Shown here in pieces: positions 24 to 63,267 of a stretch of DNA of 64,000 nucleotides. The translations under genes were made by a program, and so were the position numbers. The DNA is from Caldifarciminota bacterium. GTDB lineage: Bacteria > Hydrothermota > Hydrothermia > LBFQ01 > DSFT01. Position 1 is the stretch's first letter. The number at the start of each line of letters is the position of its first letter. Location: NCBI GenBank assembly GCA_025060695.1, contig JANXBH010000005.1, forward strand, positions 1 through 64,000. Reading direction: 5' to 3'. Under the pieces are notes generated by a model. That model was not told the origin of the DNA. It made no database searches and saw only the letters and a program-made list of their open reading frames with translations.

Positions 24-590
24 TTAAAGTATTTTTGCTATTTCTTGTGCCCAAAAGTTTATATTGTTTAATTCTTCTTCCAGTTCATTTACACTATTAA
101 ACTTATCAATATGATAATTTGCAAACATTACAAAAACCTTACTAAAAGGCAACGGAATTTGGAATTTATCCCAAGTATTTAGCTCTATGTATTTGCTATA
201 TCCAACCCCAACTAATGTAATATTTGCACTTAGTTTCTTTAATAAATTAAATAGCTCTAATTTTATTTTATTTCTTGGTCCAAGAGGACCGTCAGGAACT
301 ATACCAACAGAAAGACCACTTTTATAAGTCCTTACTATTTCAATAGCCCCTTTCATTCTTTCTTTTCTATACGAACTTTCAATAACTTCAAAACCATAAC
401 TTCTTACTATTTTAGATGCAATTTTCCCTTCTCTACTTGGAGATATTAAAACTTTTCCTTTTTTATCTTTTAAAGCTTCAAGTAATGCAAAAATCTTATT
501 ATGCCAAAATAAGTATATACTATGTTCGGATTTTCTTCCGAGTGTTTCAATTTTTAGTGTTTTTAAATATAGTCTATATGTTATCTCCAA
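24..590 (-). CDS. DUF374 lysophospholipid acyltransferase-like protein
   Basis: Predicted membrane-associated acyltransferase of the DUF374 family, the short relatives of lipid A and lysophospholipid acyltransferases. Seen in the 188-residue protein: a WH motif at 29-30 in the place of the acyltransferase histidine, SPSREG at 50-55, and the family signature PDGPLGPR at 99-106. No signal peptide is evident. The start is TTG at 590; a TAAAAT box on the minus strand lies 9 bases before it, so the mRNA would be nearly leaderless. It is divergent from tRNA-Arg(CCG). The exact acyl acceptor cannot be told. The length is slightly shorter than typical members (about 200-220 residues). Confidence 0.8.
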   Translation of the reverse strand: MEITYRLYLKTLKIETLGRKSEHSIYLFWHNKIFALLEALKDKKGKVLISPSREGKIASKIVRSYGFEVIESSYRKERMKGAIEIVRTYKSGLSVGIVPDGPLGPRNKIKLELFNLLKKLSANITLVGVGYSKYIELNTWDKFQIPLPFSKVFVMFANYHIDKFNSVNELEEELNNINFWAQEIAKIL

Positions 591-599
591 AATTATAAA

Positions 600-616
600 A
601 TTTTATACTTTAAAAT
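600..616. promoter_or_regulatory. Divergent back-to-back -10 boxes (acyltransferase / tRNA-Arg)
   Basis: ATTTTA at 600-605 reads TAAAAT on the minus strand, 9 bases before the TTG at 590. TAAAAT at 611-616 lies 7 bases before the mature 5' end of tRNA-Arg at 624. The two boxes are only 5 bases apart, so RNA polymerase could occupy one at a time. No clear -35 hexamer is seen. The assignment is inferred from position and from recurrence of the motif across the window. Confidence 0.6.
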
Positions 617-623
617 TTTTTTA

Positions 624-696
624 GTGCCCGTAGCTCAATGGATAGAGCGTCTGCCTCCGGAGCAGAAGGTTAGCGGTTCAAGTCCGCTCGGGCACA
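624..696 (+). tRNA. tRNA-Arg (anticodon CCG)
   Basis: Cloverleaf read directly: acceptor GTGCCCG pairs perfectly with CGGGCAC, D-arm GCTC/GAGC, anticodon stem TCTGC/GCAGA with loop CTCCGGA (anticodon CCG, codon CGG), T-arm AGCGG-TTCAAGT-CCGCT, discriminator A. CCA is not encoded (CTT follows). The -10 box ends 7 bases upstream, so transcription would start at or very near the mature 5' end. Confidence 0.95.
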
Positions 697-697
697 C

Positions 698-705
698 TTT
701 AAAAT
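698..705 (+). promoter_or_regulatory. TTTAAAAT -10 box, leaderless start of carbonic anhydrase-like gene
   Basis: TTTAAAAT starts two bases after the tRNA-Arg discriminator and ends 6 bases before the ATG at 712. There is no space for a Shine-Dalgarno site, so the transcript is predicted to begin at the ATG. Any -35 contact would lie inside the tRNA gene. Confidence 0.55.
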
Positions 706-711
706 TTATTC

Positions 712-1233
712 ATGATAATATATCCACATAAAAATAAATATCCTAAAATTAGTCCAACTGCATATATAGCACCAAATGCTGTTATAATTGGAGATGTAGA
801 AATTGGAGATTATTCATCTGTGTGGTTTTCTTGTGTAATAAGAGGTGATGTGCACTATATAAAAATAGGAAGTTATACTAATATTCAAGATTTAACCATG
901 ATACATGCAGAAAAGGATAAATATCCTACAATTATAGGAAATTATGTTTCAATTGGTCATAGGGCTATAATTCATGGTTGTATAATAAATGACTATGTTC
1001 TTATAGGTATGGGTGCAATTATTTTAAATAATGCATTTATAGATAGCTATACTATTGTAGGGGCAGGTTCAGTAGTTAGGGAAGATTTTAAAGGTGAAAA
1101 ATATGTCCTTCTTGCAGGAGTCCCTGCAGTTGTAAAAAGAAAGCTTACAGATGAGGAAATAAAACTAATTGAAGATATACCACAAAGATATGTAAGATAC
1201 TCAAGGGAGTACTTAGATGAAGGAATTAAGTAA
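712..1233 (+). CDS. Gamma-carbonic anhydrase-like hexapeptide-repeat protein
   Basis: Left-handed beta-helix protein of the gamma-carbonic anhydrase/YrdA/PaaY family (173 residues, the usual length). Repeating hexapeptides run from about 15 to 140. The three zinc-ligand histidines are visible at 65 (MIHAE), 83 and 88 (GHRAIIHG), and the Arg-Asp pair typical of the family is in IRGDV at 43-47. Zinc binding is therefore likely, while hydration of CO2 is only inferred from the family; many relatives have no measured activity. It overlaps the next gene by 17 bases and starts a three-gene plus-strand cluster. Confidence 0.85.
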   Translation: MIIYPHKNKYPKISPTAYIAPNAVIIGDVEIGDYSSVWFSCVIRGDVHYIKIGSYTNIQDLTMIHAEKDKYPTIIGNYVSIGHRAIIHGCIINDYVLIGMGAIILNNAFIDSYTIVGAGSVVREDFKGEKYVLLAGVPAVVKRKLTDEEIKLIEDIPQRYVRYSREYLDEGIK

Positions 1234-1486
1234 GATTATTGAAAATTATTTAATAGCAAGTAATTTGGGCTGGATATTGGACTATATGAAATTAAAAGAA
1301 GCATGTGAAGTAGTCTTAAAGCCATATGAATATTTAACTTTTGAAGAGTTTGAAAAAGGTATATTGTACTTAAAAATTACTGATAGAAGAAAATATATGG
1401 AATTTTACTATAAAAAATTAGATATCATTCGTGCAATAAACGCACTTGTTGGCAAAGAACTTGTAAAAGAAATAAAATTTAAATGA
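1217..1486 (+). CDS. DUF721/DciA-like protein
   Basis: An 89-residue protein resembling the DUF721 (DciA) domain, which in many bacteria helps load the replicative helicase DnaB. The support is the pattern in the second half: a short strand with basic and acidic residues (LYLKITDRRKYMEF), a helix (KKLDIIRAINALVG) and a closing strand (VKEIKFK), matching the shape of DUF721. No catalytic motif is expected. Its start lies inside the preceding gene, and its TGA overlaps the ATG of the SpoIID gene (ATGA), suggesting translational coupling. The family call rests on recognition by eye and is moderate. Confidence 0.5.
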   Translation: MKELSKIIENYLIASNLGWILDYMKLKEACEVVLKPYEYLTFEEFEKGILYLKITDRRKYMEFYYKKLDIIRAINALVGKELVKEIKFK

Positions 1487-3015
1487 AGAACGTCTTAGTT
1501 TTCTTAATAATAATATCCTGTCAAAGACCTATGGTTTTAAAGCCTGAGAGAAAAATTTACATTGATACTTTGAGTAATGTTTATGCGGTTGAACCTACTG
1601 TAAAAGTTAGTATTTCTACTGCTAAGCTTTTTAATCTAATATTTAAAGATAGCTTTTATATTATTAAAGAAGATACGATTTTAAAAGGCTTTAGCGGTAA
1701 TCTACTTTTAGAGTTTTTGGAGGGAAAACCTGCAAAATTAGAATATTATAAAATTTTAGGAAGATATAATAATGTCTCAGATGCGGTATTAGAAATATCT
1801 ACACTTTCAAAAGTTCACTTAAATTTTATAATAAAAACCATAGGTATAAAACTATCTAATGTGGATACAAGGGAATATTTATTACTACAAGGACCATATA
1901 GTTCATTAGATAGTATTGCAGGAGGTAGAAAATTAGCCTTGCTTTTAAAAAGACAAGAAGGTGTTGTATCTATAAAGTATGGGAATTATGAGAAAAAATT
2001 GAGTATCCCATTTGAAATTCATTCAAAAAAACCTATAACTATTAAGGATTTTATAATAGACGATGGGTTAAATCCACCGAAGAAAGTTACAAGAACGTAT
2101 GAAGGCTATTTTGAAGTTTGGGTGGACATATCGGGAAAGAACGTTCTTATTGTAAATGTGATAAATTTTGAAAATTATATTAAGGGTATTCTTCCATATG
2201 AAATGTCAAATAGGTTTCCACTTGAAGCTTTAAGGGCACAAGCGGTTTTAGCAAGAAGTCATGCCCTTTCAGTATACAAAAAGAAACTAATGCTACTTTA
2301 TCAACCATATGACCTTACAAGTGATGTATGGACTCAGGTTTATGGAGGTATAACTGACGTAAATGATAGTGTTGAACTTGCTGTAAAACTAACAAGAGGG
2401 CAGTTTCTGGTTTTCGGAAATAGTTTAGTTTATGCCTTATTTCATTCAAGTTGTGGAGGTATTTTGGATGATGGGAATTTATGGAATAATCCTTTAAGTT
2501 ATTATTTAGTTAAATACGATAATGATTTAAATCAAGGTCCTGAAATTTACAACGACAGTATTTTGAAATTATTTATAGATAATAATGTTTTTCCTTCATA
2601 TTGTAATACTGATAGGTTCTATGGTTCAAAGAGTGTCTTTAGATGGAAAACCTCATTTAAAATTTCAGAGATTGAAGGAAAATTGAAAAGAAAAATAGAA
2701 AAGTTTGAAATATTGGAAAGAAGTAATGGAGGTAGGGTAAAAAAATTAAGAATAAAGTTTTTGGATGGTGATACTATAATTGATGGTGAGTTAAATATTA
2801 GAAGGTTTTTCTATAAAGAAAAAGAGGGATATTTAAAAAGTGCATTATTTTACATTGAAAGAAATGGTGATAATCTGACTATAAAAGGTGCGGGTTTCGG
2901 TCATGGTATTGGACTTTGTCAATATGGAGCAGGTCAAAGAGCCCTTTTAGGGCAAACTTACTATCAAATTTTAAACTCATATTTTAGTAGTGTGGATATT
3001 CAGAGACTATATTAG
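1483..3015 (+). CDS. SpoIID/LytB-domain protein, probable lipoprotein
   Basis: Predicted envelope protein with a SpoIID/LytB domain, related to lytic transglycosylases that cut denuded peptidoglycan glycan strands. The signature starts near residue 240 with LPYEMSNRFPLEALRAQAV (the family Glu is in YEM), continues through SSCGG near 325, and ends with GAGFGHGIGLCQYGAGQRA near 470. The N-terminus is a very short hydrophobic stretch ending IIIS-Cys13, a plausible lipobox, so it may be a lipoprotein. The 510-residue length leaves about 200 N-terminal residues of unassigned beta-rich sequence. It converges with the TPR gene and overlaps it by 4 bases. Confidence 0.85.
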   Translation: MKNVLVFLIIISCQRPMVLKPERKIYIDTLSNVYAVEPTVKVSISTAKLFNLIFKDSFYIIKEDTILKGFSGNLLLEFLEGKPAKLEYYKILGRYNNVSDAVLEISTLSKVHLNFIIKTIGIKLSNVDTREYLLLQGPYSSLDSIAGGRKLALLLKRQEGVVSIKYGNYEKKLSIPFEIHSKKPITIKDFIIDDGLNPPKKVTRTYEGYFEVWVDISGKNVLIVNVINFENYIKGILPYEMSNRFPLEALRAQAVLARSHALSVYKKKLMLLYQPYDLTSDVWTQVYGGITDVNDSVELAVKLTRGQFLVFGNSLVYALFHSSCGGILDDGNLWNNPLSYYLVKYDNDLNQGPEIYNDSILKLFIDNNVFPSYCNTDRFYGSKSVFRWKTSFKISEIEGKLKRKIEKFEILERSNGGRVKKLRIKFLDGDTIIDGELNIRRFFYKEKEGYLKSALFYIERNGDNLTIKGAGFGHGIGLCQYGAGQRALLGQTYYQILNSYFSSVDIQRLY

Positions 3016-4340
3016 TTATTTAAAATGCTTTCAATAGTTTTAACTTTCTCACTATCTCCCATTTCTATATATAACATCTTTGACTTGTTTAAATACTCTT
3101 CCGCTTTTTTCCTCTTATTCATGGCTAAGTAGTTTAAGCCCAAGTAATAATATATTTCAGGGATTTTTGATATGAAGTTTTTATTTTTTAAAAGTTTTTC
3201 AAAATGTATTATTGATTGACTATAGTTTTTGTCTAAATACAAGCTTATTCCAAGTTTATAGCTACATTCATCTAATTTGCATCTTCTAAATGAGTTTACC
3301 GCTTCTTTATAGTTTTGAACTTTCATATAACATTCACCTATTTCTAAAGTTGCATCATTTAGAAATGCATCTCCTATTGTAGTTTTAAAGAAAAATAGAA
3401 CTCTTTTTTCTTTTGAATTTATAAAAACTTTATAAACTTCAATTGCACTATAGCATTTATCTTCTTTGTATAGTTTATAAGCTTTTAAATAATCGTAGTA
3501 TTCAGTAGTAGAGTCAACTATTTCAGGTCTTGCTAAGTATATTTCTTTTATAAGGTTTTTTGCTAATTTTGTATTTTCGTCATTTGGATAGTTTTTAATT
3601 AGCATAAGTGCGTATTCGTAGCTTTTTTCATAATTTTGTAATTTGTAATAACTATATGCACTCAAATATATAGCATTTTGATAGAATTTAAATTGCTTGT
3701 AGTTATTTACAATTAAGGTAAAGTACTTTATTGCTCTATCGTAAAATTCCGTTCTTAAGTAAATAATTCCAATTCTATAAATTCCTATTGCAGTAAATGA
3801 ACTATTTGGATAGTTTTGAATTAGTTTTTCAAATGAATTAATTGCAAGGTCATAGCTTTTCAGTAAATATGCAGAAAATCCACTTAGAAATAGAAATGTA
3901 TCTGAACTATAGTTTTTTGATATGCTATATGCAAGTGAATAGTCCTTCATTTTAATATAGCAAAGTGTTAAAAGTAAACTATCTTTTGTTTCTTGCTCTA
4001 TAGCTAAGTTGTATAAACCTTGATGATATAGTATCCATGACCTTGAGATATTTGAAAACAAAACAATTTCACTATCACTTGAAGATTTCAATATTTGATT
4101 ATATAATTCGTTTGCTTTTTGATATTGCCTTTTATAGTAGTATGCTTCTGCTAAAATAAACTTTTTTCTTTCTTCATCTGTATTTCTATAAATTCTTATA
4201 ATCATATCAAACTTGCTATTTTTATATAAACTGTCGTTAATATTAAACAGGGGTTTTTGAATTTTATCTACTTCACTTATAAATTCGGTCTCTATGTGTT
4301 CTTCTACTTCTTGAATTTGAAATAAAAGAAAAAGAAGCAC
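3012..4340 (-). CDS. Tetratricopeptide-repeat envelope protein
   Basis: A 442-residue protein made almost entirely of TPR-like helical pairs (repeated Y-x3-A/G and ANELYNQI-, AINSFEKLI- and AIKYFTLIV-type segments), with the best repeats at about 85-275 and 335-430. Such proteins act as scaffolds, often in envelope complexes of the BamD/YbgF type, but no partner can be named. The N-terminus is seven hydrophobic residues followed by Gln8, a minimal export-signal-like pattern shared with other proteins here. The start is GTG at 4340, 6 bases after a minus-strand TAAAAT box; an in-frame stop lies just upstream, so a longer start is excluded. Confidence 0.75.
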   Translation of the reverse strand: MLLFLLFQIQEVEEHIETEFISEVDKIQKPLFNINDSLYKNSKFDMIIRIYRNTDEERKKFILAEAYYYKRQYQKANELYNQILKSSSDSEIVLFSNISRSWILYHQGLYNLAIEQETKDSLLLTLCYIKMKDYSLAYSISKNYSSDTFLFLSGFSAYLLKSYDLAINSFEKLIQNYPNSSFTAIGIYRIGIIYLRTEFYDRAIKYFTLIVNNYKQFKFYQNAIYLSAYSYYKLQNYEKSYEYALMLIKNYPNDENTKLAKNLIKEIYLARPEIVDSTTEYYDYLKAYKLYKEDKCYSAIEVYKVFINSKEKRVLFFFKTTIGDAFLNDATLEIGECYMKVQNYKEAVNSFRRCKLDECSYKLGISLYLDKNYSQSIIHFEKLLKNKNFISKIPEIYYYLGLNYLAMNKRKKAEEYLNKSKMLYIEMGDSEKVKTIESILNN

Positions 4341-4344
4341 TTTT

Positions 4345-4366
4345 AAATTTTAAAGCTTTAAAATTT
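4345..4366. promoter_or_regulatory. Perfectly palindromic divergent promoter
   Basis: A perfect 22-base palindrome centred between 4355 and 4356, with core ATTTTAAAGCTTTAAAAT. Each half supplies a TAAAAT -10 box: 4359-4364 for the plus gene (7 bases to the ATG at 4372) and 4347-4352 for the minus gene (6 bases to the GTG at 4340). Only 6 bases separate the boxes, so divergent initiation must be mutually exclusive. Both mRNAs are predicted to be leaderless. Confidence 0.65.
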
Positions 4367-4371
4367 TGACT

Positions 4372-4677
4372 ATGTATAAAATTATAGCAATTTATAAAAA
4401 GCCCGATAATATAGAGGAGTTTGAAAAATACTATAGTGAAGTTCATACACCACTCGTAAAAAAAATACCTTATCTAAAAGAACTAAGAATAACAAGGATA
4501 AAAGGTTCTCCTTTTGGACAAACTGATGTATATTTAATAGCGGAAATGATATTTGAAACTAAGGAAGATTATAAAAAAGCACTTTCTTCAAAGGAGGCAA
4601 TGGAAGCAGGTCAGGACGCCTTAAAATTTTCACACAATAAAGTAGAAATAATTTTGGGAGAAGAAAATATTTTATGA
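4372..4677 (+). CDS. EthD-family dimeric alpha/beta-barrel protein
   Basis: A 101-residue protein of the EthD/ferredoxin-like alpha-beta barrel family. The hallmark is the start YKIIAIYKKPDN followed by FEKYYSEVHTPLVKKIP, where the histidine of the conserved H-x-P-L segment is present. Members are small enzymes or ligand-binding dimers of uncertain reaction. A TTG at 4366 would add two residues, but the ATG at 4372 is placed 7 bases after the -10 box like other starts here and fits the family better. It is the first gene of a seven-gene operon, and its stop overlaps the queF start (ATGA). Confidence 0.65.
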   Translation: MYKIIAIYKKPDNIEEFEKYYSEVHTPLVKKIPYLKELRITRIKGSPFGQTDVYLIAEMIFETKEDYKKALSSKEAMEAGQDALKFSHNKVEIILGEENIL

Positions 4678-5102: not shown

Positions 5103-5106
5103 AAAG

Positions 5107-5559: not shown

Positions 5560-5561
5560 TT

Positions 5562-7879: not shown

Positions 7880-7884
7880 ATTAC

Positions 7885-7892
7885 TTTAAAAT
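7885..7892 (+). promoter_or_regulatory. TTTAAAAT -10 box of tRNA-Arg(ACG)
   Basis: TTTAAAAT begins five bases after the infC stop and ends 9 bases before the mature tRNA 5' end at 7902. It follows the spacing seen at the other tRNA genes in the window. Confidence 0.5.
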
Positions 7893-7901
7893 TTTATAAT
7901 T

Positions 7902-7975
7902 GCGCCCATAGCTCAACTGGATAGAGCGGCGGACTACGAATCCGTAGGTTGGGGGTTCAAGTCCCTCTGGGCGCG
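7902..7975 (+). tRNA. tRNA-Arg (anticodon ACG)
   Basis: Acceptor GCGCCCA pairs perfectly with TGGGCGC; D-arm GCTC/GAGC; anticodon stem GCGGA/TCCGT with loop CTACGAA (anticodon ACG, A34 presumably edited to inosine); T-arm GGGGG-TTCAAGT-CCCTC; discriminator G. CCA is not encoded. It ends 6 bases before the convergent membrane-protein gene. Confidence 0.95.
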
Positions 7976-7981
7976 TTAGAT

Positions 7982-8317
7982 TTAACTATAAAAGATTATT
8001 TTTAAATTCCTATAGTTATCATATAATCCAATAAGAAGCATTGCAATAGACAAAATTGGATTTCCTCCAAAAATAGTAAATAGCACACTGCCTGCAGTAT
8101 ATAGTAAGCCCAAATTTGAAACACTCCACAGTGCTAAAGTATTCTTGTCAAACTTCGCTTTTGCTTTCTTTATCATAAATTCATTTAAATAAGAAAACAA
8201 AATAACTATACCTATTGGAATTACTATATATATTGAACAAGTTTTTGGTTTTTCTAAACTAAAGATTACCCAAGTTGCAAGTAAATAGGAAACTATTGGA
8301 ATTAGAATAAGTTTCAC
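7982..8317 (-). CDS. Small multi-spanning membrane protein, function unknown
   Basis: A 111-residue hydrophobic protein with about four predicted membrane segments (roughly 2-19, 29-47, 62-78, 83-98). I do not recognise the family. A basic cytoplasmic-looking loop (KKAKAKFDK) lies between the second and third segments. It overlaps the OmpH-like gene by 4 bases and would be translated from the same mRNA. Confidence 0.55.
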   Translation of the reverse strand: MKLILIPIVSYLLATWVIFSLEKPKTCSIYIVIPIGIVILFSYLNEFMIKKAKAKFDKNTLALWSVSNLGLLYTAGSVLFTIFGGNPILSIAMLLIGLYDNYRNLKIIFYS

Positions 8318-9210: not shown

Positions 9211-9214
9211 AATG

Positions 9215-9300
9215 CGGTGGGGGTGGGATTTGAACCCACGTCCCCTCTTGGGGGAAGCTGATTTCGAATCAGCCCCTTTCGTCCGCTCAGGCACCCCACC
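9215..9300 (-). tRNA. tRNA-Ser (anticodon CGA)
   Basis: Class II tRNA on the minus strand: acceptor GGTGGGG pairs perfectly with CCCCACC; anticodon stem GCTGA/TCAGC with loop TTCGAAA (anticodon CGA, codon TCG); long variable arm with CCCC/GGGG pairing; T-arm GTGGG-TTCAAAT-CCCAC; discriminator G. CCA is not encoded (CATT follows, then the ATG of the OmpH-like gene). Confidence 0.95.
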
Positions 9301-9302
9301 AT

Positions 9303-9860
9303 CTATAATTTTAATTCACTCTTAATAAAACCATGAGTTATCAATAGATGTAATTCTGAAATTAGGTCCATTATATTATGTCTAATAATTGTTTCTAATA
9401 AACTTTCATCCTGTTTTATTAAGTAGTTTCTCCAGTGCGTAGGTATTTCACTATTTGGTATATCAAGATTAATATTGTAGTATTCTAAATAGGATGAAGG
9501 TGAAAGTTCCTTTAATTTTGGAAATTTAGTTTTTTTTATTTTTGAGAGTTTCTTGTGTATACCCATTAAATCAATCCAACTATCTTTATAACCTAAAAAT
9601 TTAATCTCAAAATCTGTATTGTAGCCATAAAAAGGTTTTTCTAATTTCTTAAGTTTTTTATATATTTGATTTAAGAATTGGTCGTAGTCTGTATTTTTTG
9701 TTCTTAAGACTGATACTAACACATTTTTTGAAATATAACCAAATGCTATAATTTCATTATAACCATTAGTCTCAATATCAATTATAGAACCACTATCTAT
9801 AAATATAGGTAGTTCTAATTTCCACACAATCAAATTATTTTGGGCTTTGTATTTTATCAT
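9303..9860 (-). CDS. RNase H-fold 3'-5' exonuclease-like protein
   Basis: A 185-residue protein resembling the DnaQ/YprB RNase H-like exonucleases. Expected acidic motifs are visible: DIETNG at 28-33 (the DxE of motif I), FYGYNTDFEIKFL near 77-89 (motif II Asp), and RHNIMDLISEL near 158-168 (H-N-x2-D, motif III). The substrate is unknown. It overlaps the upstream SIMPL-domain gene by 26 bases if the ATG at 9860 is used; a TTG at 9833 would avoid this. Its last codons contain the -10 box (9308-9313) of tRNA-Ser. Confidence 0.6.
   Translation of the reverse strand: MIKYKAQNNLIVWKLELPIFIDSGSIIDIETNGYNEIIAFGYISKNVLVSVLRTKNTDYDQFLNQIYKKLKKLEKPFYGYNTDFEIKFLGYKDSWIDLMGIHKKLSKIKKTKFPKLKELSPSSYLEYYNINLDIPNSEIPTHWRNYLIKQDESLLETIIRHNIMDLISELHLLITHGFIKSELKL
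9308..9313 (-). promoter_or_regulatory. TAAAAT -10 box of tRNA-Ser and OmpH-like gene
   Basis: Minus-strand TAAAAT lies 7 bases before the mature 5' end of tRNA-Ser (9300) and inside the end of the exonuclease-like gene. It would drive a tRNA-mRNA transcript covering tRNA-Ser, the OmpH-like gene and the small membrane-protein gene. Confidence 0.5.
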
Positions 9861-10446: not shown

Positions 10447-11033
10447 CTTAGTTGTCTTGATTGGTCAAATTGGATAGATGATTCTATTTCAAATGGTGTT
10501 GTTGTTAACTGTCTTTTACTCTTAATAAAATAATAAAGATATCCATAAAAGTATCTATCTTCCCTTAATGAACCACCGAAAAACTTCAAGGTATCGCCAC
10601 TGTCAGATATGCCAAATATTGGGACAAGTTGATACTTTGAAAGTTGAACATTCATAGTTAACATCTTATATACTACTGAACCATTTTGAAGTCTATATAC
10701 GAAATATATGTTTCTATCCATATATAATATTAATACGTCATTTATTGCAAAACCTGCTACTCTATGTTGCCAACCATTGCACTTGCCGTCCCTTACTGGT
10801 GCACTCATGAGTTCCCTACCTCTATTATCAAATATAGTAATTACTCCGTATGGATTAATTTCAGCCTTATAGCCTGCGTAAGTTTCAGTTTTGGAATTGA
10901 AGCAGTCTTCAAACTCAGGGAACTTTATTTTTAACTCCTTTGCTCTTTCAATGGACTTAACTATACTACTTGTATCCCATTTTATAATTTGTTGTTTCTG
11001 AAAACCCTGTAATACCAAAATATAAAAAAGCAT
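10443..11033 (-). CDS. Putative exported protein of unknown function
   Basis: A 196-residue protein that I cannot place. Residues 1-8 are hydrophobic and are followed by Gln9, suggesting export. The rest is rich in beta-strand patterns and aromatic residues, with a stretch GVITIFDNRGRELM near 65-78 resembling beta-propeller or beta-sandwich repeats. ATG 11033 lies 9 bases after a minus-strand TAAAAT box. It is the first of a group of minus-strand envelope genes. Confidence 0.5.
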   Translation of the reverse strand: MLFYILVLQGFQKQQIIKWDTSSIVKSIERAKELKIKFPEFEDCFNSKTETYAGYKAEINPYGVITIFDNRGRELMSAPVRDGKCNGWQHRVAGFAINDVLILYMDRNIYFVYRLQNGSVVYKMLTMNVQLSKYQLVPIFGISDSGDTLKFFGGSLREDRYFYGYLYYFIKSKRQLTTTPFEIESSIQFDQSRQLR

Positions 11034-11042
11034 GACTTTAAA

Positions 11043-11073
11043 ATTTTAAAGCACAATCTAAAGGCTTTAAAAT
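11043..11073. promoter_or_regulatory. Divergent -10 boxes
   Basis: ATTTTA at 11043-11048 (minus TAAAAT, 9 bases to ATG 11033) faces away from TAAAAT at 11068-11073. The plus box is exceptional: 21 bases separate it from ATG 11095, and that leader carries a GGGAGG ribosome binding site at 11084-11089. The two mRNAs of this pair would thus use different initiation modes. Confidence 0.5.
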
Positions 11074-11094
11074 TTCTAAAAAAGGGAGGAAAAT

Positions 11095-11754
11095 ATGAGA
11101 ATAACCTATTTAGGGCACTCAGCGGTAAAAGTAGAATTGGCTAATAAGATAATATATATAGATCCCTTCCTTTCAGGAAATCCAAAAGCACCTATTACTG
11201 CAGATGAAATAACACATGCGGATATTGTAATAGTTACGCATGACCATGGTGACCACCTTGGAGATGCATTTGCTATTGCTAAGAAGACTAATGCTTGGTT
11301 AGTTTCACAATACGAAATAACCGTAATGGCAAATGAAAGTGGTATAACTAAAGTTGAACCTATGAATATTGGTGGACCTATAAGTGTTGAAGGAATAAAA
11401 ATTGCTTTAACTCCAGCTTTTCATACATCGCAGAATGGTTCTCCGACAGGAGTTATTGTTCAAGCATTAGGTAAGACTGTCTATCATGCTGGAGATACAG
11501 GTTTATTTTCAGATATGAAACTTATTGGAGAATTATATAAACCCGATATTGCACTTTTACCCATTGGAGGCAGGTTTACCATGGACATTTATCAAGCTGC
11601 AAAAGCTGTTGAATTTATTAAACCAAAATACGTAATACCAATACACTATAATACATTTGATATGATAAAGACGGACCCCAGTAAATTTGAGGAGTTAGTT
11701 AAAGATATAGTGCAAGTAGTAATTTTGAAACCGGGAGAAGTGTTTAACTATTAG
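11095..11754 (+). CDS. UPF0173 metallo-beta-lactamase-fold hydrolase
   Basis: A 219-residue metal-dependent hydrolase of the UPF0173/YtkL group. The zinc-binding motif THDHGDHLGD is present (His49, Asp50, His51, Asp53, His54), with further ligands expected at the His of PAFHTS, Asp of HAGDTG, and His of PIHYNTF. The physiological substrate is unknown. The ATG has a clear GGGAGG site. It overlaps yggS by one base. Confidence 0.9.
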   Translation: MRITYLGHSAVKVELANKIIYIDPFLSGNPKAPITADEITHADIVIVTHDHGDHLGDAFAIAKKTNAWLVSQYEITVMANESGITKVEPMNIGGPISVEGIKIALTPAFHTSQNGSPTGVIVQALGKTVYHAGDTGLFSDMKLIGELYKPDIALLPIGGRFTMDIYQAAKAVEFIKPKYVIPIHYNTFDMIKTDPSKFEELVKDIVQVVILKPGEVFNY

Positions 11755-16048: not shown

Positions 16049-16054
16049 TTCTGC

Positions 16055-20402: not shown

Positions 20403-20426
20403 ATTTTAAAGTAAATACTATAAAAT
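20403..20426. promoter_or_regulatory. Divergent -10 boxes (gmhA / PLP enzyme)
   Basis: ATTTTA at 20403-20408 is a minus TAAAAT box 9 bases from TTG 20393. TATAAAAT ending at 20426 is 8 bases from ATG 20435. Twelve bases separate the boxes. Confidence 0.6.
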
Positions 20427-26616: not shown

Positions 26617-26624
26617 TTTAAAAT
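26617..26624 (+). promoter_or_regulatory. TTTAAAAT -10 box of uppP
   Basis: TTTAAAAT ends 10 bases before TTG 26635. The 113-base gap before uppP shows nothing else recognisable. Confidence 0.5.
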
Positions 26625-26634
26625 TTCAAAGTTC

Positions 26635-27390
26635 TTGAATATATTTCAAGCATTCATTTTGGGAATGGTTGAGGGTATTACTGAGTTTTTACCAATATCC
26701 TCAACAGGACACTTAATTTTAACCTCTAAACTTCTTTCAATAAACCAAGATGAATTTACTAAATCTTTTGAAATAATTATACAGATGGGTGCAATCTTGT
26801 CAGTTGTTTTCATATATTTTAAAAAATTGATATCAGATTTAAGATTAATAAAAGTGCTTTTTATTGCATTTTTACCTTCTGCAATTTTAGGTTTTTTGTT
26901 TTCAGACTACATAAAAAATTATTTTTTTAACTATATAGTAGTTTCAATTATGTTAGTTTTTTGGGGAACAGTGTTTATATTAGTAGAAAAGCTAAATGAA
27001 AAGAGAAAAAGTTTTAGGTCATACTTAGATTATAGAACTGCTTTCTTAGTTGGTGTTTTTCAGTGCTTTTCTTTAATTCCGGGAACTTCTCGCTCAGGTG
27101 CTACAATTATTGGAGGTATGATATTAGGTTTAGATAGGAAAACAGCTACTGAATTTTCATTTTTATTGTCAGTTCCTACGATAGTTATTGCAAGTATATA
27201 CGAATTTACAAAGGAAAGTCAATTTTTATTAAATTCAAATTTTTCCGTTCTTATCGTTGGTTTTATTACATCATTCGTTTTTGCCTATCTTTCTGTAAAG
27301 TGGTTAATAAACTTCGTCTCACATCATACTTTTATTGCTTTTGGTATTTATAGAATTTTATTAGGATTGATATTTTTAGTGTTTGCATGA
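26635..27390 (+). CDS. uppP: Undecaprenyl-diphosphatase UppP (BacA)
   Basis: Recycles the lipid carrier undecaprenyl diphosphate for peptidoglycan and other wall polymers. Both catalytic motifs are intact: EGITEFLPISSTGH near 14-27 and PGTSRSGATI near 149-158. About eight membrane segments, 251 residues, normal length. Start is TTG at 26635. It overlaps folC by 4 bases. Confidence 0.94.
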   Translation: MNIFQAFILGMVEGITEFLPISSTGHLILTSKLLSINQDEFTKSFEIIIQMGAILSVVFIYFKKLISDLRLIKVLFIAFLPSAILGFLFSDYIKNYFFNYIVVSIMLVFWGTVFILVEKLNEKRKSFRSYLDYRTAFLVGVFQCFSLIPGTSRSGATIIGGMILGLDRKTATEFSFLLSVPTIVIASIYEFTKESQFLLNSNFSVLIVGFITSFVFAYLSVKWLINFVSHHTFIAFGIYRILLGLIFLVFA

Positions 27391-28607
27391 AAGAAGTATT
27401 AGATATTTTAAATTCGTTTATAAACTATGAAAAAATTGGGACTATTCCAAGGGATTTGGAGAATTTTAAGAATTTCTTAAAAAAATTTGACAATCCACAA
27501 CATAAGCTTAAGAATGTTGTTCACGTTGTAGGGACAAAGGGTAAAGGTTCAGTTAGTTTCTATTTATCAAGATTTCTTATAAATGCGGGTTTTAAGGTTG
27601 GAACTTATATTTCTCCACATCTTGTAAATATTAGAGAAAGAATAATGTTAGATTTAAATCCAATTAGTGAGAACGATTTTGTAAGAATATTTCATAATGT
27701 ATACAAAAACATGGAGATTAAATCTAAGAATTTTAGGACATTCTTTGAAACTCTTACTGCTATGGCTTTTTTGTATTTTCTTGAAAACAACTGCGATTAT
27801 TGTATTATAGAGGCAGGTCTTGGAGGAAGACTGGATGCTACTAATGTGTTTGATAAAAGTAATGTTATAATTACAAAAATCCACTACGACCATATGAATG
27901 TCTTAGGAGATACATTAGATAAAATAGCTTTTGAGAAGGCAAGTGTAATAAAGAAAAATTCATTAGTTTTTACTTCTTATCAGGAAAAAGAGGTTATGAA
28001 GGTTATAAATGATTTTGTTATGAAAAATAGTGCAGAGTTGTTTTTCGTTGAATTTGAAACTATAAATAGTTCACTATATGGTGTTGAGTTTAGAGTAAAA
28101 GATAGAGTTTTTAAAACTCCTTTAGTTGGAAGCTTTCATGCTTATAATGCAAGTCTTTCTATTATTGCATTTGAAAAATTAACAAATATGAAATTTAAAA
28201 ATGAGTTGTTTAAAGACATAAGAATACCGGGAAGATTTGAGGTTTTTAAAATAGGACAAAAAACAATAGTTTTAGATGTTGCACATAACTACATTTCTAT
28301 CTTAGAAACTATAAGTAATACTATTGACTTGTTTCATAAAGAGCCTATCATTATATTTTCACTCTCAAAGGATAAAGATTTAGAAAATATTTCAAGAATC
28401 ATAAAACCATATCTTGTATTGCTTCCTCATATTGAAAATCCGAGACTGCTAAAGCCTCATGAAATTTCAGAATATTTAGAAAAATATCTCATTTTTAATA
28501 CTTTGAAAGATGCAATAGATTTCGCTATGCATAGTGATTTTGATATTGTCTTAATTACAGGTTCTAACTTTTTAGTTTCTGAATTTTTAGGACTTTATGC
28601 TTTATAA
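27387..28607 (+). CDS. folC: Folylpolyglutamate / dihydrofolate synthase
   Basis: Mur-ligase-family enzyme adding glutamate to folates, 406 residues. Visible: ATP-binding VVGTKGKGSVS near 47-57, the SPHL segment (TYISPHLVNIRERI), EAGLGGRLDATN near 142-153, and a C-terminal ligase domain with VLDVAHN. The start overlaps uppP as ATGA. It precedes tRNA-Trp by 17 bases; a TATAAT at 28603-28608 spans its stop codon and may be the -10 box for the tRNA. Confidence 0.9.
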   Translation: MKEVLDILNSFINYEKIGTIPRDLENFKNFLKKFDNPQHKLKNVVHVVGTKGKGSVSFYLSRFLINAGFKVGTYISPHLVNIRERIMLDLNPISENDFVRIFHNVYKNMEIKSKNFRTFFETLTAMAFLYFLENNCDYCIIEAGLGGRLDATNVFDKSNVIITKIHYDHMNVLGDTLDKIAFEKASVIKKNSLVFTSYQEKEVMKVINDFVMKNSAELFFVEFETINSSLYGVEFRVKDRVFKTPLVGSFHAYNASLSIIAFEKLTNMKFKNELFKDIRIPGRFEVFKIGQKTIVLDVAHNYISILETISNTIDLFHKEPIIIFSLSKDKDLENISRIIKPYLVLLPHIENPRLLKPHEISEYLEKYLIFNTLKDAIDFAMHSDFDIVLITGSNFLVSEFLGLYAL

Positions 28608-28608
28608 T
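28603..28608 (+). promoter_or_regulatory. Possible TATAAT -10 box for tRNA-Trp operon
   Basis: TATAAT overlaps the folC stop codon and lies 16 bases before the mature 5' end of tRNA-Trp. It is the best candidate for the large tRNA-Trp-rpmG-secE-nusG-ribosomal-rpoBC unit, but the spacing differs from the 7-9 bases seen at other tRNAs, so RNase P trimming would be needed. Confidence 0.35.
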
Positions 28609-28624: not shown

Positions 28625-28698
<74 letters not shown>

Positions 28699-42886: not shown

Positions 42887-42960
42887 AGCCTGCGGGCGGA
42901 TTTGAACCGCCGACCTCTTCCTTACCAAGGAAGCGCTCTAACCTCCTGAGCTACGCAGGC
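42887..42960 (-). tRNA. tRNA-Thr (anticodon GGT)
   Basis: Minus strand. Acceptor GCCTGCG pairs with CGCAGGC; D-arm GCTC/GAGC; anticodon stem CTTCC/GGAAG with loop TTGGTAA (anticodon GGT, codon ACC); T-arm GGCGG-TTCAAAT-CCGCC; discriminator T. CCA is not encoded. It is immediately followed by ccmC. Confidence 0.95.
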
Positions 42961-42968: not shown

Positions 42969-42991
42969 ATTTTAAAGCCCATCTTTAAAAT
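42969..42991. promoter_or_regulatory. Divergent -10 boxes (tRNA-Thr / pdxH)
   Basis: ATTTTA at 42969-42974 is a minus TAAAAT box 8 bases from the mature tRNA-Thr 5' end. TAAAAT at 42986-42991 is 10 bases from ATG 43002. Confidence 0.6.
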
Positions 42992-48743: not shown

Positions 48744-48757
48744 AGTTTACCTCCACT

Positions 48758-49822
48758 TCAGCTCCTTGTAGCAACTAAGTATTTTAAACTATCATTCTCT
48801 GATTTTATTAAAATCCTTGATAATTCAGGATAAATGTAAATATATATCTCATTCTCTTCAATAGCATCAAATATGTGCCTAAGCTTATCATATTGCAAAT
48901 ATATCTCTAAGTCGTCGCCTTCATACTTACCAAGTAAATTTGCCCTAAATTCTTCTCCACTATATGAAGAACCAGCAATTTCAATAATATCTCCAACTTT
49001 CAAGCTAAATATATCAATATCTATAGAGGACATAGCTTTGAGCTTATGCTTTATTTCATCTTTATTAATGATTAATTTATTAGGTATATCCTCTTCAAAT
49101 AAAGAAGCATAATCTGGGTAGGTCCCTGAAATCAATCTAAGACTTAGAAAACCATTTGAAAATTTTAAAATCATTTTTTCATCTTTGTAAAAACCGATTT
49201 TTATTTCATTGTCTTCAATATCTGATAACAAGTTATAAATAATTCTTGGCATTATTACCTGGAAGTCTCCAAAATTATCTTCTAATAACTCAGTATATAG
49301 CCCAAGAACATTCCTATCAGATGCTACAAAATTAGCAATATTGCCTTTATTATCCCATAGTATACCTGAAAAGATAGATTCATCGTCCTTATCTACACAA
49401 AATTCTATTTTTGAAAGAATTTCTTTTAGTTTTTTACTAGAAAATGTGAAACTTTCTATTTTTTCATTACTTTCTGAAATCTTCGTAAAAACCGTCGTAT
49501 CTAAAATAGGTATTTTATAGTAAATATCTTCAAAGAATATTTTTAGTATATTTTCTAGTTCAAAGTGCAATACTGAAAAGTCAGGAGTATTTTTTAATAT
49601 ATGCATTAAAGTTGAACCATTTATTAAAACTTCACCATCTTTACCATTTAGAACCTTTGAAAAACCAATATGTTGAACGTCTGGACTATGCGAGTGGACA
49701 TAAAGAACATTATCTTTAACTTCTAATAGAATGTTGTTTTCAATACTTTTCCTCTTTCCTAAGATTCTATTTGTTATACGCAAAACTTTTTCAATTTCTT
49801 TCTTTTCTATTGAAAATTTCAT
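48758..49822 (-). CDS. dnaN: DNA polymerase III sliding clamp beta subunit
   Basis: A 354-residue beta clamp in three repeated domains (about 1-120, 121-235, 236-354). Recognisable: EVLINGSTLMHILKNTPD, FSGILWDNKGNIANFVASDRNVLGLY, and GTYPDYASLFEE. The C-terminal domain lacks strong catalytic marks, as expected. A TAAACT box at 49832-49837 (minus) lies 9 bases before the ATG. It is about 33 kb from dnaA rather than next to it. Confidence 0.9.
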   Translation of the reverse strand: MKFSIEKKEIEKVLRITNRILGKRKSIENNILLEVKDNVLYVHSHSPDVQHIGFSKVLNGKDGEVLINGSTLMHILKNTPDFSVLHFELENILKIFFEDIYYKIPILDTTVFTKISESNEKIESFTFSSKKLKEILSKIEFCVDKDDESIFSGILWDNKGNIANFVASDRNVLGLYTELLEDNFGDFQVIMPRIIYNLLSDIEDNEIKIGFYKDEKMILKFSNGFLSLRLISGTYPDYASLFEEDIPNKLIINKDEIKHKLKAMSSIDIDIFSLKVGDIIEIAGSSYSGEEFRANLLGKYEGDDLEIYLQYDKLRHIFDAIEENEIYIYIYPELSRILIKSENDSLKYLVATRS

Positions 49823-50026
49823 AGTTTTGAAAGTTTAAAGCTATATAACTATGTTTATTCAGAAAGTCTTTTTTATAAGAAAATGGCTATTGCAATAGCA
49901 AGAAAAAATACTTGTGTGCCTGAAATAGTTATCAAGAAATTTAGAAGATGGATTAAGCTTGAAATTAGCAATCTAAATTCCATACCCTTGAAAGTTTTTA
50001 TTTTTGTGCTTTAAAATCTAAAAGCT
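49823..50026. other. Intergenic stretch between dnaN and the T9SS cargo gene
   Basis: Part of the longest gap in the window (about 270 bases in all). It holds the dnaN -10 box (AGTTTA at 49832-49837) and, at 50012-50017, TAAAAT on the plus strand placed 9 bases before an ATG at 50027. Two weak frames are seen: 43 codons on the plus strand (49883-50014) and 36 hydrophobic codons on the minus strand. Neither has a recognisable product or ribosome binding site. No DnaA-box cluster is visible, so an origin is not supported. Confidence 0.4.
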
Positions 50027-50089: not shown

Positions 50090-50094
50090 TAGAG

Positions 50095-52206: not shown

Positions 52207-52208
52207 AA

Positions 52209-52553: not shown

Positions 52554-52560
52554 AGCCAAA

Positions 52561-52578
52561 ATTTTAAAGCTATAAAAT
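52561..52578. promoter_or_regulatory. Divergent -10 boxes (COX4-like / SDR)
   Basis: ATTTTAAAGCTATAAAAT is nearly palindromic: minus TAAAAT (52561-52566) 7 bases from ATG 52553 and plus TAAAAT (52573-52578) 9 bases from ATG 52588. Only 34 bases lie between the two start codons, so all control of both genes must fit within this space. Confidence 0.65.
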
Positions 52579-52587
52579 TTTAGCAGT

Positions 52588-54081: not shown

Positions 54082-54090
54082 ATTTAGAAA

Positions 54091-54116
54091 ATTTTAAAGG
54101 TTATTAGCTTTAAAAT
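54091..54116. promoter_or_regulatory. Divergent -10 boxes (yajC / Trm112-like)
   Basis: Minus TAAAAT (54091-54096) is 9 bases from ATG 54081, and plus TAAAAT (54111-54116) is 9 bases from ATG 54126. Confidence 0.6.
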
Positions 54117-54125
54117 TGTTAAACT

Positions 54126-54299
54126 ATGGAAGAAAAAATTCTTAATGAGCTTTTAGAAATCTTGGCATGTCCAATATGCAAGGGTGATATAGAGTATAAA
54201 CAGGATGAAAACAAACTTATATGTAATAAGTGTAGATTAAAATTTCCCATAAAGGAAGGTATTCCCATACTATTGGAGGAAGAAGCGGAAAAGTTTTAG
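54126..54299 (+). CDS. Trm112/UPF0434-like zinc-ribbon protein
   Basis: A 57-residue gene below routine ORF length. The protein has [38 protein letters not shown], the pattern of Trm112-family proteins (YcaR/UPF0434): two CxxC pairs (Cys15, 18, 33, 36) and the PI-x2-GIP-x-LL closing segment. Eukaryotic and archaeal Trm112 activate methyltransferases; bacterial partners are less clear. It ends 6 bases before the C25 protease gene. Confidence 0.8.
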
Positions 54300-54305
54300 A
54301 AGTCT

Positions 54306-59010: not shown

Positions 59011-59011
59011 G

Positions 59012-59037
59012 ATTATACAATAAGCTTTAAAATTTTA
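59012..59037. promoter_or_regulatory. Divergent promoter region (MFS / TPR)
   Basis: Plus TAAAAT at 59028-59033 lies 9 bases before ATG 59043. On the minus strand, overlapping TAAAAT at 59037-59032 lies 21 bases before TTG 59010, and TATAAT at 59017-59012 ends one base before it. The plus and minus TAAAAT boxes overlap within AAAATTTTA. Confidence 0.45.
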
Positions 59038-59042
59038 AGGTT

Positions 59043-60167: not shown

Positions 60168-60169
60168 GC

Positions 60170-60667
60170 TTGAGTCGGGTTTTAGTATTAAATCAAACTT
60201 TTGAACCGTTAAATATTATAAGTATAAAAAGAGCAATAAAGTTAATATTTACATTAAAAGCGGATATAATTTATGCTAATAGCAAGCTAATAAGAGCGCA
60301 AAGTATAGCTATACCTGAGCCAAGTGTTATAAGACTTAAATACTATATTAAGGTAAAGTACAAAGAACCTTCTCTGTCAAAAAAAAATATAATTTTAAGA
60401 GATAGAAGGACATGTCAATATTGTGGAACTCAAAAGGGACCATTTACAGTTGATCATATTACTCCAAAGTCAAGAGGTGGTAAGGACACTTGGGAAAATT
60501 TAGTTTGTGCTTGCATGAAGTGCAATTTAAAAAAGGGAGATATGTTACCAGAGGAAGTAGGTATGAAATTAATTTCTAAGCCAAGGAAACCCACATATTT
60601 TGAACTAAATATTTTAAGAGATAGCATTCCAGATGAAAGATGGAAGGAATTTTTATACTTAAAATAG
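60170..60667 (+). CDS. HNH endonuclease family protein
   Basis: A 165-residue protein of the stand-alone HNH family widespread in chromosomes (start VLVLNQTFEPLNIISIKRAIKLIF). Zinc and catalytic residues: Cys82, Cys85, VDHITPKSRGG with His96, Asn110 in WENLVCACMKCN, Cys115/118. It is not linked to a recognisable intron, intein, or restriction system, so a housekeeping DNA role is more likely than selfishness. The start is TTG; it overlaps the next gene by 28 bases. Confidence 0.85.
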   Translation: MSRVLVLNQTFEPLNIISIKRAIKLIFTLKADIIYANSKLIRAQSIAIPEPSVIRLKYYIKVKYKEPSLSKKNIILRDRRTCQYCGTQKGPFTVDHITPKSRGGKDTWENLVCACMKCNLKKGDMLPEEVGMKLISKPRKPTYFELNILRDSIPDERWKEFLYLK

Positions 60668-61668
60668 TTGGTGATACGAACTTAATAAGAGTTTCTAAAG
60701 ACCCAAACTTTGAAATAAATAGCCTTGTAAAGGAATTTTTAAATAAAGGTTATCCATTTACTACGTTTAATTTAATAAAAATAGGCAAAATTCAAGATAC
60801 CATAGTAATTGAATACAGTTTTACTAAAGGTGCGATTTATATAGTAAAATCAATTAAATTTTCAGATTATTACTCAAAGAAATTTGTCTATCAAAGATTT
60901 TTAAATAACTTCAAAAATTCCATTTTAGACTTTCAGAATATTAGCAAAACTATAAATAGTCTTGATAATTTTTATAAATTAGAAACTCAACTAACTATAG
61001 AAAAGGAGTATTTAGTTCTTAAGAATAAAAAAATACCTTTTGAAGGTTATGGAGGGCTTACGATTTCAGATACTCAGATAAATGGGAACGTTAGTCTAAG
61101 ATTTGATTTTTTAAAATTCATCTATAGTAAAAATTTCAAGAACATTGGTCTTGAATTTCCATTTCCTATAAAATTTCCAAATAATTTCGGTTTTTCCTAT
61201 TATAGTATTTTAGAAGATAAAAACTTTGAAGTATATGCAAATATTTCTGGATACATTATGGGTTATAGACTTTATAACGATAAATTGGGTATTTTTGGAG
61301 CTTATAGTAAGCATAGTATTTATTTAAGATTAGATGCGTTGAATTTTTTTTATAAATTATTTTTCAACTATGAAAACAAATTTTTAAACTTGCAGTTTTC
61401 TATAAACCAAATTGATAAAAATGTAATAGGTGGTTCTCATAGTATTTTGGGTTATCTTGACAATTCCATTATTTGTAATAACTACTTGTTCTTAACTTTT
61501 AGAACGAACTTAAATTTTTTCTTACCAGTTTTTCAAATATATTGGATTGACAAAAGTAAAATGCTGTATTCCTATGGATTGGGTATAGGTAATGAAAGTT
61601 TTGGTATATATTTTATTATAAATGGTAGGGAAAACAAGCCCTACCTTCACTTTCTAATTAAAAGTTAA
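60640..61668 (+). CDS. Compact BamA/Omp85-like protein
   Basis: A 342-residue protein. Residues 25-125 resemble one to two POTRA domains (LVKEFLNKGYPFTTFNLIKI, IVIEYSFTKGAIYIVKSIKF, VYQRFLNNFKN); residues about 130-342 are Gly/aromatic strand repeats as in a small outer-membrane barrel (GYGGLTISDTQINGNVSLRF and GGSHSILGYLD, the last like the GG-x3-RGY loop of Omp85). Typical BamA is about 800 residues, TamA 580, so this is very small. No signal peptide is seen from the ATG. Confidence 0.45.
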   Translation: MEGIFILKIVGDTNLIRVSKDPNFEINSLVKEFLNKGYPFTTFNLIKIGKIQDTIVIEYSFTKGAIYIVKSIKFSDYYSKKFVYQRFLNNFKNSILDFQNISKTINSLDNFYKLETQLTIEKEYLVLKNKKIPFEGYGGLTISDTQINGNVSLRFDFLKFIYSKNFKNIGLEFPFPIKFPNNFGFSYYSILEDKNFEVYANISGYIMGYRLYNDKLGIFGAYSKHSIYLRLDALNFFYKLFFNYENKFLNLQFSINQIDKNVIGGSHSILGYLDNSIICNNYLFLTFRTNLNFFLPVFQIYWIDKSKMLYSYGLGIGNESFGIYFIINGRENKPYLHFLIKS

Positions 61669-63250
61669 TTTCTCTATAAATCCAAAATCTTGCTAAAAAG
61701 CTTCCAGCATCAGCCTTTGAATAATTTACAATTTGTCCACCGATATTCGTAACGTCTCCTGTTAATAGTCCTACCTTTTGCAATGCTGCTAAAGAAGTTG
61801 GTCTTATCCAGCCATATTTTAATCTATTTCCAGGTATGAAATATCCTATTATAAATCCTAAATCAGCCACTTCTGCATACCTAAATCTGAGAGACAGGTC
61901 AAATTCATAGCCTAAATCTAGTGCATATGCTTGATCTGGCTCTATAGGAAACTTTGTGCTATCTACTGTAATGTATTCTTTTTCGGGACCCCAATATTCC
62001 CAATAACCAAGAAAGTCAAATCTTGCCTTCAATGAGTGAAAAATTGTGTATGGAACTGCTTCAAGATATACATTTATAATTCTGAGATCTGACATTACAC
62101 TTGCAAATATATCCCTGTATAAGCCGGGTTTCATACCCCAAGTGAATATTTCACCAATACCACTCCACTTACTCCAATTGCTATTTAATGATAATTCACC
62201 TCTTAAAGATGGAGCAAACCAACCTTCATAGACATCGTTTGTATTACCATTGTCACCTTGAAAACTTGTATAACTAATACCCATTCCAAATGTTTCACTA
62301 GCAATATATTTTGCATCAATTGTAAATGCTAACGAGTTAAACCTATAACCTTGACATTCTTGGTTTAAATTAGGATCGCAGTTTCTAATAATAGTATATA
62401 GCTTATCAGGAAGATCATTGTATACTGGTTTTACCGCATCCCATCTTCCAAACATATAACCTATTTCACCTCTTATATTAAACTTTCTAAATGGACCTAC
62501 ATCTATATATAGTCCTGTCCAAAATGGATTAAAACCGGGTGATATAGCTCTGTCTTCAGCAAGTGCCAAAAAGTATATGTTAAATGCGTATGGTTGATCT
62601 GTTCTTTTTAGTTTTCTTAAGACTATACCATAGTTTTCTAAGTCATATTTTGTGTATATCCAATAGTACCATTTTGTATTCTCTGTATTTATAGCAACAG
62701 GAAAGTAGAACCAATCTTCCTGATTACCTCCTCCCTCTGAAATTTTAGTATATACGAAATCTAAATAAACTTCTTGATTTTCATTTGGTCTTAGAAATAT
62801 ACCGAATGTATTATATCCTTGCCCATAGAAGTCTGAAAACAGAAGACCTAAACCATAATTTCTTACCATTCTTCCACCTGCTATTACTGCTTTTGTCCCA
62901 AACGGCCAATTTAGAGTATCTGTCATTACAAAGGCTTCACTTATAAAAGGGAAATTCTTCTTAGAAAATCCAGACCACAATCCCCACCAAGTAAGTCCAA
63001 GTCCTATAGTAAATATATCATTTACTCTTATACGAGCATTTAGTCTTGCATAACCTGCTTGGAACATTTCGTTTTCCGCACTCGCAGCAGTAGCTGTTAG
63101 ATCTGGAATGTGAGAAGTTACATATACATTAGTGGCAAGAACTTCTCCGTAGAACCTTGCATCAATCACATCACCTTCTCTAAAGAGTTCAACTTGTGCC
63201 CAACTTACTGAAAAGAGACTTAAAATAAGAAAAATCTTACGCATCATCAT
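61658..63250 (-). CDS. Outer-membrane porin-like barrel protein
   Basis: A 530-residue barrel protein with the clearest signal peptide of the window: MMMRKIFLILSLFSVSWA followed by Gln19. Strands rich in Tyr, Trp and Gly alternate through the whole length (for example RFYGEVLATNVYVTS, LGLGLTWWGLW-like segments, GIVLRKLKRT), resembling alginate-export or DUF6029-type porins. Codon choice is less A+T-extreme than neighbours, as expected for a highly expressed porin. A TATAAT lies 11 bases before the ATG. Substrate unknown. Confidence 0.65.
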   Translation of the reverse strand: MMMRKIFLILSLFSVSWAQVELFREGDVIDARFYGEVLATNVYVTSHIPDLTATAASAENEMFQAGYARLNARIRVNDIFTIGLGLTWWGLWSGFSKKNFPFISEAFVMTDTLNWPFGTKAVIAGGRMVRNYGLGLLFSDFYGQGYNTFGIFLRPNENQEVYLDFVYTKISEGGGNQEDWFYFPVAINTENTKWYYWIYTKYDLENYGIVLRKLKRTDQPYAFNIYFLALAEDRAISPGFNPFWTGLYIDVGPFRKFNIRGEIGYMFGRWDAVKPVYNDLPDKLYTIIRNCDPNLNQECQGYRFNSLAFTIDAKYIASETFGMGISYTSFQGDNGNTNDVYEGWFAPSLRGELSLNSNWSKWSGIGEIFTWGMKPGLYRDIFASVMSDLRIINVYLEAVPYTIFHSLKARFDFLGYWEYWGPEKEYITVDSTKFPIEPDQAYALDLGYEFDLSLRFRYAEVADLGFIIGYFIPGNRLKYGWIRPTSLAALQKVGLLTGDVTNIGGQIVNYSKADAGSFLARFWIYREINF

Positions 63251-63261
63251 AGAGTGTCAAA

Positions 63262-63267
63262 ATTATA
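63262..63267 (-). promoter_or_regulatory. TATAAT -10 box of porin gene
   Basis: Minus-strand TATAAT overlaps the stop codon of the DUF212 gene and ends 11 bases before ATG 63250, giving the porin its own near-leaderless promoter despite being downstream of other genes. Confidence 0.45.

Follow-up and report, generated by a model that had tools for sequence, protein, structure and literature searches.

A −35-less extended −10 element set against start codons suggests leaderless mRNAs as the default for first genes in a WOR-3 group bacterium

Promoter boxes at the locus

The window analysed here, a stretch of 64,000 nucleotides, is part of a 1.50-Mb metagenome-assembled genome (MAG; 77 contigs, 94.9% complete, ~30% GC) of an uncultured WOR-3 group bacterium, the RpoB of which is nearest (53%) to MAGs labelled candidate division WOR-3. 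Our subject is a hexamer, TAAAAT or a close variant (hereafter the box), that stands just upstream of the first genes of transcription units and of tRNA genes. An initial annotation, made from the sequence alone, had listed such a box before 16 protein starts and four tRNAs. A base-by-base check found it at all 16 starts, 14 times as exact TAAAAT at 6–10 bases and once each as TAAACT and TATAAT, and at the four tRNAs as well.

On the forward strand, exact boxes precede the ATG starts at 712 (box at 700–705, 6 bases before the start), 4372 (4359–4364, 7 bases), 20435 (20421–20426, 8 bases), 43002 (42986–42991, 10 bases), 52588 (52573–52578, 9 bases), 54126 (54111–54116, 9 bases) and 59043 (59028–59033, 9 bases), and a TTG start at 26635 (26619–26624, 10 bases) that is backed by a match to the BacA family (profile positions 1–257 aligned with residues 6–246). 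On the reverse strand they precede the TTG starts at 590 (600–605, 9 bases) and 20393 (20403–20408, 9 bases), a GTG start at 4340 (4347–4352, 6 bases; back to back with the box of 4372) and the ATG starts at 11033 (11043–11048, 9 bases), 52553 (52561–52566, 7 bases) and 54081 (54091–54096, 9 bases); the variants lie before the ATGs at 49822 (TAAACT, 49832–49837, 9 bases) and 63250 (TATAAT, 63262–63267, 11 bases), also on the reverse strand. The listed tRNAs are tRNA-Arg at 624 (611–616, forward, 7 bases), tRNA-Arg at 7902 (7887–7892, forward, 9 bases), tRNA-Ser at 9300 (9308–9313, reverse, 7 bases) and tRNA-Thr at 42960 (42969–42974, reverse, 8 bases). Although all of these boxes are real, the list needed two amendments: the start at 54126 opens an open reading frame (ORF) of only 57 amino acids, and a fifth tRNA, tRNA-Trp at 28625, had been passed over, with TATAAT at 28603–28608 on the forward strand, 16 bases upstream.

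Contrasting with these is a leadered promoter at 11067–11094 on the forward strand, in which TAAAAT (11067–11072) lies 22 bases before the ATG at 11095 and is followed by a Shine–Dalgarno (SD) site, GGGAGG. The six operon-internal SD sites named in the initial annotation (5107, 28866, 29085, 29673, 31354 and 48743) were also found to be genuine.

Back-to-back boxes 5–20 bases apart serve four divergent pairs in the window (4347–4364, 20403–20426, 52561–52578 and 54091–54116).

Enrichment at start codons and exclusion of SD sites

Genome-wide counts, unless stated otherwise, come from 399,806 bases of the window's own genome, taken in stretches (the 400-kb sample, 90% of it coding). Genes were called from codon usage alone, by a caller blind to the TAAAAT motif, and a gene is termed divergently preceded when its upstream neighbour lies on the opposite strand. 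Exact TAAAAT ends 5–11 bases before the start codon in 65 of the 102 divergently preceded genes, most often at 6–9 bases, and in 74 of the 102 when alternative starts are allowed; 8-base windows tested further upstream hold the motif in 2–8% of these genes. The initial annotation had proposed both this alignment of upstream regions and a comparison with shuffled sequence, and the motif proved far commoner than chance: 200 dinucleotide shuffles of the upstream regions gave a mean of 2.9 and a maximum of 9, and permuted hexamers, other than shifts of the block itself, scored 0–9.

The box is concentrated at the heads of units. It precedes 99 of 189 first-gene candidates (52%) and 119 of all 358 genes, but only 17 of 163 operon-internal genes. 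SD motifs show the opposite distribution: none was found among 72 boxed divergently preceded genes, compared with 8 of 30 unboxed ones and 59 of 134 unboxed operon-internal genes. The tail of the 16S rRNA retains an intact anti-SD sequence, CACCTCC. Boxed genes start with ATG in 82 cases, TTG in 11 and GTG in 7. With E. coli as a control in the same pipeline, 1 of 22 divergently preceded genes had TANNNT at such a spacing.

An extended −10 element without a −35 element

The box at which RNA polymerase would engage first genes reads TTTAAAATTT. Among 67 box-aligned promoters without an overlapping reverse box, one block is conserved, [AG]CTTTAAAATTT, and in 87% of them the third base ahead of TAAAAT is C (1.9 bits). 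No −35 element was found in this alignment, which holds at most 0.11 bits at any position from −50 to −5, in contrast to the classical sigma-70 layout with a −35 element ~17 bases upstream. Because RpoD retains every region, including 4.2, the absent −35 element is a property of the promoters and not of a truncated sigma factor, and we reject loss of sigma region 4 as its cause. Nor is the layout archaeal: a leaderless archaeal gene would have a TATA box ~25–30 bases before the start codon, whereas here the box ends 5–11 bases before it. The extended block is strongly tied to starts; of its 95 copies (CTTTAAAATTT) in the sample, 64 lie 5–11 bases before starts, 26 are elsewhere between genes and 5 fall within genes. 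Divergent genes often have two back-to-back boxes, mostly 5–26 bases apart, so that two leaderless promoters would fit in intergenic regions of ~30–45 bases.

The box also occurs in the leader of 16S rRNA (CCTTTAAAATTTT) and, in exact form, 7–17 bases before 29 of 42 tRNAs (most often at 10–11 bases). Its presence upstream of these RNAs marks it as part of a promoter rather than a site for ribosome binding. The window's tRNAs, at 7–9 bases, represent the short end of this range, and the claim that tRNA spacing marks exactly where transcription starts does not hold genome-wide; tRNAs keep short leaders, which we infer to be ~0–10 nucleotides long. The contrast between this spread and the confinement of mRNA boxes to 5–11 bases is informative, and the start site is better judged from −10 geometry and the narrow mRNA spacing than from the tRNAs.

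Probable leaderless initiation and its alternatives

In sigma-70 promoters, the −10 hexamer is usually followed by 6–7 bases before the transcription start. Applied to a box that ends 5–11 bases before the start codon, this geometry implies that the mRNA begins 0–4 nucleotides ahead of it. We therefore consider it highly probable that the box serves the housekeeping promoter as its −10 element, in the extended form [AG]CTTTAAAATTT and independent of a −35 element, and that first genes give rise to leaderless or near-leaderless mRNAs. Transcription of such genes would start at the start codon or no more than ~4 nucleotides before it; the resulting mRNAs would leave no room for an SD site, and the ribosome would recognise the 5′-terminal start codon directly. 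Genes further along operons would instead initiate through SD sites and the intact anti-SD sequence, as would the minority of first genes whose box stands at least ~20 bases upstream (such as that at 11095). Two modes of initiation thus appear to coexist, one leaderless for most first genes and one led by SD sites for operon-internal genes and the remainder. The sequence gives good support to the proposal in the initial annotation that first genes are leaderless by default: 64–73% of genes with a divergent upstream neighbour are boxed, as are 52% of all unit-first candidates, and an SD site accompanied the box in none of 72 genes.

Several observations weigh against this reading. The boxed share across all unit-first genes is 52%, not 70%. 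Among same-strand genes that follow a gap of at least 40 bases, just 11 of 63 are boxed even when alternative starts are allowed, although many of those without a box may be operon-internal or mis-called. The starts themselves come from a codon-usage caller that agreed with RefSeq in 54 of 71 E. coli genes, so some are wrong. Only a few orthologue pairs have starts that align in both members; in the window's genus, four of four such pairs have the box in both members at a similar distance, with unconserved flanks.

An alternative that accepts the −10 element is that start sites are scattered, which would yield leaders of 5–15 nucleotides and an SD-less mode of short-leader initiation, assisted for example by S1 or by A/U-rich sequence. 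The tRNAs do show that a promoter can be placed 7–17 bases from a mature end, and spacing places a start site only to within a few bases; however, mRNA boxes are restricted to 5–11 bases (87 of 94 at 5–10 in the sister family), the usual 6–7 bases leave 0–4 nucleotides, and a mechanism tolerant of leaders would not require so narrow a range. We regard this alternative as improbable. Still less likely is that UAAAAUUUU is a non-SD ribosome-binding element in a longer leader, as has been proposed for A/T-rich non-SD sites in Bacteroidetes. It does occupy the SD position and never occurs together with an SD site, but the same element precedes untranslated tRNAs and 16S rRNA, is scarce before operon-internal genes and takes the −10 form TANNNT in a GC-rich sister family; we reject a translation element because the tRNAs and 16S rRNA carry the box. 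The enrichment might also have arisen simply from the A+T-richness of intergenic DNA or from circular gene calling, but we give this reading almost no chance of being correct. In a genome of ~30% GC, TAAAAT occurs 1,605 times in 400 kb, yet the shuffles, the permuted hexamers and a caller blind to the motif all speak against such an artefact, and the signal persists in relatives at 51–59% GC, which together refute it.

Distribution among relatives

The window's genome (G000) belongs to a family, f1, that also contains G001, of the same genus (g1), and G002 and G003, of a second genus (g2). A sister family of the same order, f2, comprises G004–G011, and further relatives are other families of the class. 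Boxed divergently preceded genes number 19 of 38 in G001, and 9 of 24 and 4 of 6 in the two genomes of g2 (51–52% GC). In f2, at 55–59% GC, TANNNT lies 4–11 bases before the start in 63–81% of divergently preceded genes, compared with 6–37% in windows further upstream. In an alignment of 94 f2 promoters, gaps are 5–11 bases, TANAAT is preceded by C at −6 in 87% and at −3 in 73% of cases, and no −35 element was found. Other families of the class have a weaker signal, and in one of them, f10, none of the genes has TAAAAT and 64% have an SD site. The named WOR-3 loci (L001–L003) have mostly SD sites among the few starts seen. From these comparisons, the trait seems to span the whole order.

The f2 promoters (L223–L227 and L233–L242) have a further extended −10 variant, CNNC[CT][GT]TANAAT.

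Relation to known leaderless systems

Leaderless promoters are known elsewhere, and the case described here is a strong, −35-less variant. TANNNT ~10–12 bases upstream marks leaderless genes in many bacteria (Zheng 2011, PMC3160421), and in Deinococcus-Thermus a −10 element adjoining the ORF works without a −35 element (Zhong 2025, PMC12340547). The present system has in common with both a TANNNT a few bases before the start, no SD site, a −35 element that is not required and coexisting SD-led genes; it differs in the longer element, [AG]CTTTAAAATTT in f1 or CNNC[CT][GT]TANAAT in f2. Leaderless genes have been put at about one-third of the total in D. radiodurans, and a survey gives up to 40% of transcripts in leaderless-using bacteria (PMC9581028), compared with our 64–73% of divergently preceded genes, a rough comparison given that the denominators differ. 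What is new is the lineage, the strength of the signal, the fixed C-containing extended −10 element in place of a −35 element and the link with loss of the ribonucleoprotein RNase P (below); a literature search that covered few subscription journals found no paper naming WOR-3 together with leaderless genes or with RNase P.

The lineage would rank among the strongest bacterial cases of leaderless genes, at both 30% and 55% GC and outside Deinococcota and Actinobacteria. It should help in asking whether bacteria inherited leaderless initiation from a common ancestor or came to it by convergence, and which sigma factor and ribosome features permit it. As most gene finders seek SD sites, many annotated starts in the order are probably wrong.

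Loss of ribonucleoprotein RNase P and maturation of tRNAs

None of the four f1 genomes yielded an RNase P RNA, which was found in 35 of 37 others at E ≤ 0.001; a lax search of f1 returned a partial best match at E 0.69. The protein subunit RnpA (PF00825) was likewise not found in the four genomes and was found in 34 of the 37 others, and its gene is gone from its usual place, rpmH being followed directly by yidD and yidC in all four (L271–L274). All four encode HARP (PF08745; E values of 4e-37 to 4e-45), known from Aquifex as an RNase P made of protein only, and the G002 protein matches a solved HARP structure, 8kd9, at 6e-37. The reverse holds in the sister family f2: each of its eight genomes has RnpA and RNase P RNA (in G004 the latter as a sub-threshold fragment only), and none has HARP. 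The small bacterial signal recognition particle (SRP) RNA (RF00169) was also not found in G000; it may have diverged, may be of the large type or may be encoded in the 5% of the genome that is missing. We therefore considered whether the RNase P RNA, too, had diverged, but rnpA has cleanly disappeared from rpmH–yidD–yidC, and this and the lax search argue against it. The f1 data fit 5′ maturation of tRNAs by HARP only, with HARP as the predicted enzyme of pre-tRNA cleavage.

HARP-only bacteria have been described among Aquificaceae, some Nitrospirae and some unclassified bacteria (PMC6380272). As in Aquificaceae (PMC6380272, PMC10941002), all four f1 members have HARP, and RNase P RNA and RnpA were found in none of them, but they belong to a different phylum and, in genus g1, HARP is split by a conserved frameshift at a run of nine A (A9). 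The family f1 adds another bacterial family with HARP as the only recognised RNase P.

A second comparison is with Nanoarchaeum equitans, which has leaderless tRNAs and no RNase P (as summarised in PMC10941002). Here, too, a promoter lies close to the mature tRNA 5′ end and canonical RNase P was not found. The spacing, however, varies (7–17 bases), tandem tRNAs still require 5′ processing, and the genome has a HARP gene. Seven tandem tRNAs start 2–5 nucleotides after another tRNA; these would still need 5′ cleavage, and theirs is thus not the Nanoarchaeum solution. We reject the idea that leaderless tRNAs made RNase P unnecessary, given the spacing, the tandem tRNAs and similar spacing in relatives with RNase P. 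As short tRNA leaders also occur in those relatives, they preceded the loss and are not its consequence.

The tandem tRNAs that lie 2–5 nucleotides apart, with no encoded CCA, are found in G000 at C33:36912–37215, C33:93183–93328, C11:125298–125459, C11:131019–131201 and C44:34551–34700.

A split HARP gene and avoidance of A-runs

Both genomes of genus g1 have a HARP gene whose frame breaks at an A9 run, in each case at the same codon; the frame is intact in G002 and G003. The split gene lies on the reverse strand at 8253–7721 of L105 (G000:C22; A9 at 8152–8144) and at 3537–3008 of L194 (G001:C105, also reverse; A9 at 3436–3428). The first frame has the N-terminal catalytic Asp (VLDTS or VIDTS) and the other frame DSKEDID and DEG. 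Runs of at least nine A are rare: four occur in 400 kb (both strands; the window and L090–L106), compared with 56 expected under codon shuffling in coding sequence alone. A conserved A9 at the break suggests programmed slippage, either ribosomal (−1) or transcriptional; assembly error in both MAGs is a less likely cause. A direct tblastn scan found no further frameshifts among 70 queries.

A broader scenario is possible, although we hold it only tentatively and think it less likely than not to be correct. The whole order would rely mainly on a −35-less extended −10 element set against the gene, with leaderless mRNA the rule and short pre-tRNA leaders universal; this arrangement would have eased the loss of ribonucleoprotein RNase P in one family, where no RNase P but HARP would remain, and the window's genus would make its HARP through programmed slippage at A9.

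One of the four A-runs, at 60379 in the window, lies within an HNH endonuclease ORF (60170–60667) and is accompanied by no visible frame break.

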